Below are positions 24,784 to 25,829 of a DNA stretch of 34,580 nucleotides, in pieces. The position numbers and the translations under genes are program-made. How positions within the stretch are numbered: the stretch's first letter is position 1; each line of letters starts with the position of its first letter. Below the pieces are notes generated by a model that did not search any database, was not told the origin of the DNA, and saw only the letters and a list, made by a program, of their open reading frames with translations. This stretch comes from a virus, in the IMG/VR virus record IMGVR_UViG_3300035703_000263, positions 1-34,580 of that record, one strand, 5' to 3'.

Positions 24784-24945
24784 ATGAACAAAGCACAAGC
24801 AATTGAAAAAGCCGGTACGGCCATGGCACTAGCCAACCTGTTAGGCATCAAACGCCAGGCGATAAGCCAATGGGGTGAGCAGCTGCCGATTGCGCGTTAC
24901 TGGCAGCTTAAAGTGTTGCGGCCGGAGTGGTTTACAAACAAGTAA
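24784..24945 (+). CDS. cro: Cro-like transcriptional regulator
   Basis: The 53-residue protein has the Cro pattern: KAQAIEKAGTAMALANLLGIKRQAISQWG, with AMALANLLGI as first helix and RQAISQWG as recognition helix, followed by LPIARYWQLKVLRPEW, as in P22/lambdoid Cro proteins of the DNA-binding regulator Cro family. It probably binds the inverted repeats just upstream. I chose ATG 24784 for the family match; the frame runs upstream to 24703 but that part crosses both operators and has no Cro similarity. No CI gene is present nearby. Confidence 0.82.
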   Translation: MNKAQAIEKAGTAMALANLLGIKRQAISQWGEQLPIARYWQLKVLRPEWFTNK

Positions 24946-24959
24946 TTGTTCGATATGAT
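24931..24959 (+). promoter_or_regulatory. Promoter TTTACA-17-TATGAT for the structured RNA
   Basis: TTTACA (24931-24936, inside the end of cro) and TATGAT (24954-24959) each match sigma-70 consensus at five of six, with the ideal 17-base spacing. The predicted start, about 24966, is exactly at the 5' end of the structured RNA, leaving no gap. Confidence 0.7.
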
Positions 24960-24965
24960 TTATAT

Positions 24966-25072
24966 ATCCCTTGGCGGGGGTTCTTAGACAAGCCTTAGTT
25001 AGCGTCCTGCTTGTGTCTACAAGTCCGCCAACACCTTAAAACGGTGAGGATGCTAACTAAGGCTTTTTTTTT
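24966..25072 (+). ncRNA. Structured leader / small RNA upstream of the replication genes
   Basis: About 107 bases from the promoter to the T-run fold into a three-way junction: an outer stem of 18 pairs (24990-25007 with 25048-25065, one G-U), an inner hairpin CTTGT/ACAAG (25010-25014 with 25019-25023) and CACC/GGTG (25032-25035 with 25043-25046). A second fold is possible: TTGGCGG (24971-24977) pairs with CCGCCAA (25025-25031) and TAGACA (24985-24990) with TGTCTA (25014-25019). The two folds compete. It may be an attenuator, a free small RNA, or both. I do not recognise an Rfam family. Confidence 0.7.
24990..25072 (+). terminator. Strong intrinsic terminator before the replication genes
   Basis: The left arm AAGCCTTAGTTAGCGTCC (24990-25007) pairs in full with 25048-25065, followed by a run of T up to 25072 (nine T in all from 25064). 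The stem encloses 40 bases with two more hairpins. It ends 10 bases before ATG 25083, so readthrough must be controlled for the replication genes to be expressed. Confidence 0.85.
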
Positions 25073-25082
25073 GGCGGGCATT

Positions 25083-25829
25083 ATGAAAATTAAAAATTGG
25101 TCAAAGTTTCAACACTTTAAAGACCGCAAACCACCTTGGGTAAAGCTGTATAGAGAACTTTTAGATGACATTGAATGGCATTTATTAGACCCAAAAGCCG
25201 CTAAAGTTTTGACAATGTTGTGGTTAATAGCAAGTGAATTTGATGGCGATTTGCCGGACAATAAAACGCTTGCATTCCGTTTGAGATTGTCTGAAACAGA
25301 AACAAAAACAGCGGTTTCTAAGCTATCTCATTGGCTGATACAAGACGATAACAATGTGATATCAGAGCGATATCAAAGTGATAGTCTAGAGACAGAGACA
25401 GAGACAGAGACAGAGACAGAGAAAGAGATAGAGGTCAGTAAACCGACTTCTGCGAAGTCTCAATCCACCAGATTAAATCCTGATTGGCAATTACCAGATG
25501 ATTGGGCAATATGGGCCAAGCAGAACAGGCCTGAATTAAACCTGAATGAAATTGCAGACGGGTTTAAGGATTATTGGATTGCCCAACCAGGTGCCAAAGG
25601 TCGCAAGGCTGATTGGTTTGCAACCTGGCGCAACTGGATACGAACACAGAAACAAAGAAACCAGGACAAGGTATACGAATCACCCTGGCAAAAGGCTGCA
25701 CGTTTACGCATGGCTGAATTTGCACCAGGCGTAGCAGCTAAAGACCCAAACCAAACCAATACCATCGACATGGAGTTTTTTAACAGACCACAGGAGATTA
25801 AAAATGTCACTTCCAATAGCAGCGATTGA
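25083..25829 (+). CDS. Replication initiator-like protein (lambda O position)
   Basis: The 248-residue protein begins MKIKNWSKFQHFKDRKPPWVK and continues LYRELLDDIEWHLLDPKAAKVLTMLWLIA, a pattern of phage replication proteins with an N-terminal winged-helix domain. Residues 70-117 carry a Glu/Thr repeat (ETETETETET) encoded by GAGACA units. A C-terminal part (DWQLPDDWAIWAKQNRPELN, then DYWIAQPGAKGRKADW) is typical of O-like proteins. It lies just before the P-like gene. I chose ATG 25083 because residues before it in the frame are translated from the structured RNA. Confidence 0.8.
   Translation: MKIKNWSKFQHFKDRKPPWVKLYRELLDDIEWHLLDPKAAKVLTMLWLIASEFDGDLPDNKTLAFRLRLSETETKTAVSKLSHWLIQDDNNVISERYQSDSLETETETETETEKEIEVSKPTSAKSQSTRLNPDWQLPDDWAIWAKQNRPELNLNEIADGFKDYWIAQPGAKGRKADWFATWRNWIRTQKQRNQDKVYESPWQKAARLRMAEFAPGVAAKDPNQTNTIDMEFFNRPQEIKNVTSNSSD
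25389..25430 (+). repeat. GAGACA microsatellite, candidate replication origin
   Basis: Five perfect GAGACA units (25389-25418) and two variants (GAGAAA, GAGATA) in tandem, inside the O-like gene. Just upstream, GATATCA occurs twice as a short direct repeat. In lambda the origin iterons lie inside gene O between the DNA-binding and P-binding parts; this place is equivalent. The repeat is unlike classical iterons, so the origin role is inference. Confidence 0.5.

Follow-up and report, generated by a model that had tools for sequence, protein, structure and literature searches.

A pseudoknotted RNA with a predicted promoter and terminator in front of phage replication genes

The locus and the fold of the RNA

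The window, a stretch of 34,580 nucleotides of viral DNA, encodes an RNA of ~107 nt, here called type A, flanked by a cro-like gene and a replication gene. From 5' to 3' its elements are hairpin H1 (whose loop is the 5' strand of helix P1), the 5' strand of helix P2, the 5' arm of stem T, hairpin H3, the 3' strand of P1, hairpin H4, the 3' arm of T and a U-run. The features of the locus are:

24784..24945, plus strand: cro-like gene directly 5' of the RNA (Pfam P22_Cro, PF14549, 45.2 bits, above the cut-off)
24931..24959, plus strand: predicted promoter, -35 TTTACA (24931-24936) and -10 TATGAT (24954-24959), the -10 kept at the same distance in relatives
24966..25072, plus strand: structured RNA (type A), ~107 nt (103.4 bits with covariance model R1)
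24968..24979, plus strand: hairpin H1, stem CCC/GGG, loop UUGGCG (24971-24976) being the P1 5' strand (3/3 stem pairs compensatory, 100% paired)
24985..24990, plus strand: P2 5' strand UAGACA, adjoining the foot of stem T (covariation with the H3 loop)
24990..25008, plus strand: 5' arm of stem T, 19 bp with 25047-25065, one G-U (17/18 counted pairs compensatory)
25010..25023, plus strand: hairpin H3, CUUG/CAAG enclosing the P2 loop (4/4 pairs compensatory, 100% paired)
25014..25019, plus strand: P2 3' strand UGUCUA, the H3 loop (pseudoknot P2, 5-8 bp in 79/79 RNAs)
25026..25031, plus strand: P1 3' strand CGCCAA, between H3 and H4, pairing with the H1 loop (99.3% paired)
25032..25046, plus strand: hairpin H4, CACC/GGUG (3/4 pairs compensatory)
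25047..25065, plus strand: 3' arm of stem T (covariation; exactly 19 bp in 74/79 RNAs)
25064..25072, plus strand: U-run, with stem T a predicted intrinsic terminator (from sequence; kept in nearly all relatives)
25083..25829, plus strand: first gene 3' of the RNA, phage replication initiation/primosomal protein (PHROG 26426 'replication protein', 67 bits)

The promoter lies where an earlier note on this DNA had placed it; its spacing is 17, it scores 10/12, and its predicted start at ~24966 falls right at the base-paired 5' end formed by H1. A 2-kb scan of the region returned 6 promoter-like sites vs 2.5 expected, so that the window promoter by itself is weak evidence. The note had also described an outer stem of 18 pairs, which is present but has 19, the U-A pair at its top having been omitted. 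It had read correctly the nine T that close the RNA (25064-25072) and the replication gene behind it, since 25083-25829 matches PHROG replication/primosomal families; the ATG stands 10 nt 3' of the U-run. Present as written, too, and compensatory in relatives, are the two further pairings that it had listed, TTGGCGG (24971-24977) with CCGCCAA (25025-25031) and TAGACA (24985-24990) with TGTCTA (25014-25019). The folding energy of 24966-25074 is -45.1 kcal/mol vs -28.1 +/- 3.4 for shuffled sequences (z = -5.0).

These two pairings had been taken for a fold that competes with the terminator, a view that was not supported in that form, because P1 and P2 have one base only in common with stem T, at its foot. 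With their other bases outside T, P1 and P2 are, as read from the alignment, pseudoknots of one compact fold, in which H1 would dock into the three-way junction and the H3 loop would pair 5' of stem T. A classical either/or switch is thus ruled out, the helices sharing no bases beyond that one. The junction of T, H3 and H4 is tight: a single G separates T from H3, UC precedes P1, and there are no nucleotides around H4. The length of T is fixed and that of H4 varies freely, and ~70 of the 79 RNAs carry a mismatch in the middle of T, at pair 9 or 10 counted from the junction. The sequence of P1 and the junction is near-invariant, and those of T and P2 vary freely.

In the window the H1-loop sequence TTGGCGG recurs at 25071-25077, directly after the U-run and adjoining the ribosome-binding site of the replication gene, and CCGCCAA could alternatively pair with this repeat in a read-through RNA. 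The repeat is absent from close relatives (for example, L001).

Distribution and covariation of the family

Searching with the replication protein returned 80 viral loci, whose upstream regions mostly hold one of two RNAs, type A or a second one, type B. A pattern of the type A core matched at least 119 viral contigs; apart from those in a betaproteobacterial MAG and a chromosome of Polynucleobacter, most of its matches among genome contigs were due to chance. Viral contigs and a few Burkholderiales genomes together yielded 112 distinct type A RNAs (79 at less than 96% identity), from which covariance model R1 was built. All 59 contigs searched with R1 had a single copy each, as did the window; the model also detected diverged copies in L026 and L027 and in a few Burkholderiales genomes. 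Run on the type B sites, R1 gave no match, and type B RNAs were discarded as relatives detectable with this model. The type A RNA is rare outside viral contigs, by counts that strict filters make lower bounds: in the genome collections it was found in 1 of 186 for Polynucleobacter, 3 of 398 for the family, 2 of 399 for the order and 1 of 369 for the class. The only carriers in the public phage collection are two uncultured Manatee Spring genomes, where it has no annotation. At L306:817-1059 (MW202462.1) the public record has an opposite-strand 'hypothetical protein', probably spurious, that spans the RNA. Two diverged copies in front of an HNH gene, in two genomes of one Burkholderiaceae genus (L224:1501-1602 and L225:1501-1602 (minus)), keep both pseudoknots and the mid-stem mismatch and have lost the long U-run; in the distant L224 the same A.C mismatch is still readable.

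Compensatory changes, which the earlier note had proposed to seek with a covariance model, were seen in every stem. Pairs were counted on 68 type A sequences (35 pairs), and 30 of the 35 show compensatory changes. In this alignment 97% of cells pair vs 79% after shuffling. The covariation of P2 is equally strong, with a score in fixed register of 0.746 vs 0.28 +/- 0.03 when shuffled; both comparisons are inflated by the relatedness of the sequences. Slid controls are free of such bias, and against these the scores are 0.495 vs at most 0.10 for the 68 sequences, with at most 0.23 in the slid controls for P2. The H3 stem, for instance, reads CUGG/CCAG, CUAG/CUAG, CUCG/CGAG or CUAC/GUAG in relatives. 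P2 was outside the search pattern; the sequence of P1 was partly fixed by it, so that the support for P1 is given by the independently found variants UUGACG/CGUCAA (L054), UUGGUC/GACCAA (L008 and L307) and UUGGCA/UGCCAG (L026). Since every helix recurs with compensatory changes in relatives, chance is ruled out as its origin. An inverted repeat acting only at the DNA level is ruled out as well, by the G-U pairs in T and by the constant transcribed strand 3' of the -10.

Rfam 15 returned no match at gathering score for the type A RNA in the window and ten type A loci, and the only matches below threshold were microRNA-type, to the long stem of the window RNA. No paper on the type A RNA was returned by a literature search that had most subscription journals outside its reach. 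The architecture is therefore absent from Rfam, while phage leader RNAs that are structured and affect transcription, such as put (PMC9378689) and IsrK (PMC4825925), are a kind already known.

Leader position and exchange with int-alpA RNA

In 61 of 79 sequences the RNA is preceded by a -10 that agrees with TATAAT at 5 or more of 6 positions, vs 2 of 79 in a control stretch of the same sequences. At the other end, the start codon lies 7-15 nt 3' of the U-run in 69 of 76 cases, which leaves no room for another promoter. The genes that follow belong to 18 unrelated protein clusters, including replication proteins, GIY-YIG and HNH nucleases, ParB-like proteins (assigned by eye), an AntA antirepressor and small unknowns. 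Identical spacers such as attggaaaaagct precede unrelated genes, and the coding sequence switches at the start codon with promoter, RNA and spacer constant. A GIY-YIG or HNH nuclease gene is often the first behind the RNA (L030, L046, L102, L125, L137, L151, L185, L224 and L225); judged from the sequences, such genes look as if inserted at the start codon, where they would use the RNA's expression signals. The position, the constant spacing and the swapping of genes together favour a leader acting in cis.

Downstream of the U-run lies sequence complementary to the foot of T's 3' arm, at -4.97 vs -3.37 +/- 0.20 kcal/mol for swapped spacers, a comparison confounded by kinship and with a weak value (-2.5) in the window itself. 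As this helix is possible in the read-through RNA alone, it hints at selection on that RNA. Looking for a leader peptide, we found no conserved short reading frame: the GUUACACAUG subgroup alone has an ATG..TGA frame of ~15 codons, and a leader peptide is ruled out by the shifting of the frame among close relatives (L012 vs L013, L030).

The type B RNA was identified by cmscan as int-alpA RNA (RF02996; 36.7 bits, cut-off 35.8, other loci 31-36), which Rfam catalogues as 'Gene; sRNA' and for which the literature search returned only a table mention and a passing mention. Of 80 loci fetched with a DUF1376 replication protein, 8 have type A and many have type B. Upstream of the RNAs, L013 (type A) and L076 (type B) are identical at 176 of 213 aligned positions, and L180 (A) and L271 (B) at 124 of 151; the shared sequence is ~82% identical and switches from one RNA to the other just 3' of the -10. 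Such near-identical sequence with either RNA behind it points to the exchange of two unrelated RNAs at one control point. Sister phages have either of them in one position, in the order -10, RNA, U-run and start codon, and both have a closing stem enclosing two hairpins and a loop that pairs outside. However, int-alpA RNA has the conserved CGGCUAGG..CGAAAAG..CCUGCCG, a pseudoknot to the 3' side and a length of ~71 nt, and the two models do not detect each other, the RF02996 model giving no match in the window and ten type A loci (E <= 0.5).

The int-alpA RNAs in early-operon leaders lie upstream of the replication gene (L011-L080 and L232-L304; for example, L064:2898-2974 and L072:540-616). 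The loop of their second hairpin is complementary to the bases that directly follow the U-run, and several loci (for example, L242, L264 and L285) have another, similar stretch overlapping the ribosome-binding site. The int-alpA RNAs in front of the replication gene in L023 and L024 are near-identical, with the first hairpin swapped as a block.

Control of the early operon and the alternatives

We give about an even chance to the reading that the type A RNA forms the 5' leader of the early right (replication) operon, on which it would work as a cis-acting attenuator; it probably sets how much of the operon is transcribed. The comparison shows a conserved -10 for RNA polymerase a few bases before H1, and an RNA with H1, the junction of T, H3 and H4, P1 from the H1 loop and a junction strand, and P2 from the H3 loop and the strand before T. 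T ends in the U-run immediately ahead of the ribosome-binding site of whichever gene comes first. P1 and P2 would already be in place by the time polymerase makes the 3' arm of T, the 5' arm being held in a closed loop; with P2 closed, T could wind only about one turn, to where the conserved mismatch sits, and its lowest two pairs would be strained. A stable P1/P2 core would let polymerase read through into the operon, and a core unformed or opened would let T close and end the transcript at ~107 nt. The near-invariance of P1 and the junction points to recognition of the core by a factor of the host, which may be RNA polymerase itself or some general RNA-binding protein.

The covarying helices, the conserved -10, the start-codon spacing, the 18 gene clusters, the single copy per contig, the complementarity past the U-run and the exchange with int-alpA RNA are consistent with attenuation, as is a leader site that, by its sequence, places a terminator directly before the first gene. 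So are the predicted folds of nascent RNA lacking the 3' arm of T, whose minimum-energy structure contains P1 in 69 of 78 cases and P2 in 57 of 78. However, the alternative structure that an attenuator would build from terminator-stem nucleotides was not found, P1 and P2 sharing at most one base with T, and geometry lets both nearly coexist. In a crude model of rigid helices, with 6.2 angstrom of backbone per nucleotide, P2 and a 19-bp T coexist if ~2 basal pairs open, and a ~15-bp stem would need none opened. The model weakens our first idea, by which P2 would keep all of T's lower half from forming; for this, the topological argument alone remains. Likewise, the trap for the terminator's left arm proposed in the earlier note survives at most as a topological or kinetic competition confined to the foot of T. 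The attenuator reading is further weakened by the energies (~-17 kcal/mol for the lower half of T vs ~-11 for P2), by the strict 19-bp stem, whose length is no requirement of an attenuator, and by L217, the prophage-like copy of Polynucleobacter sp. UK-Kesae-W10, where the gene starts 75 nt downstream. The retention of the fold and mismatch in L224 and L225 without a good U-run implies that termination may not be the core function.

It is rather unlikely, in our estimate, that the operon is read mainly from elsewhere (for example, from pR before cro) and that the 107-nt RNA is a stable product acting in trans, as a regulator, decoy or protein-binding RNA. Type A does look like a complete unit: it has a predicted promoter of its own, a 5' end that is structured and a strong terminator. 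Rfam lists int-alpA, which shares its site, as an sRNA gene, and the fixed stem resembles architecture rather than regulation. Against this stand the constant start-codon spacing with genes swapped exactly at the start codon, the complementarity across the U-run and the relatives without a U-run. At the level of the locus Gifsy-1 IsrK is similar, being a phage locus with its own promoter where termination yields a short RNA and read-through an mRNA (PMC4825925); unlike the leader proposed here, IsrK acts in trans on its long form.

A folded RNA could also bind the elongating polymerase and make it resistant to terminators, its own terminator being the first checkpoint. A structured RNA close to the beginning of a lambdoid early operon, HK022 put acts on transcription in cis, and putR lies in the same general place, downstream of PR and before the early genes (PMC9378689). 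A near-invariant P1 and junction beside freely varying T and P2 would suit a constant host partner, and type A heads an operon as a single copy. In contrast, put is ~70 nt long, has two stem-loops and is present in both early operons (PMC9378689), whereas type A has a three-way junction, two pseudoknots and a U-run, and occurs once per contig, with none before the window's left operon; a put-like pair in both operons is ruled out by this single match. We consider a put-like antiterminator distinctly unlikely.

We think it more improbable still that P1 and P2 form between two antiparallel RNAs, or that the fold simply shields the early mRNA against nucleases at its 5' end. Two interaction sites at opposite ends of a fixed-length stem, with H4 variable, would fit the former, and the base-paired 5' end at the predicted start the latter; both pairings, however, are feasible within one molecule with ~2 basal pairs open. 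HDV-like ribozymes nest four helices in the same order, their P1-P2-P3-P4 corresponding to P1-T-H3-H4 here; type A has no catalytic J4/2 strand, H4 joining T with zero nucleotides between, and no Rfam match.

The nutR/tR1 region of lambda also lies between cro and the replication genes and has a terminator, but to our knowledge neither a promoter of its own nor a fold like type A. The difference from tR1 that the earlier note had seen is borne out, the terminator here belonging to a pseudoknotted RNA with its own predicted promoter.

Type A is thus a widespread and strongly supported RNA family missing from Rfam and located at the point of control for the replication operons of phages; it heads the early operon in many freshwater phages, and the first gene of that operon is usually a replication gene. 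The catalogued but unexplained int-alpA RNAs gain a context from it, since the two share the leader position and replace each other and so probably do the same job. If the pseudoknots do set read-through, the terminator would here be controlled by means other than shared bases. More speculatively, and with a likelihood that we put low, an RNA module, protein-free or dependent on a host factor and one of at least two interchangeable kinds (with int-alpA), may govern the early operons of freshwater betaproteobacterial phages by a topological lock, in which a pseudoknot would hold one terminator arm, the stem's length and its central mismatch being adjusted to a single turn of the helix.
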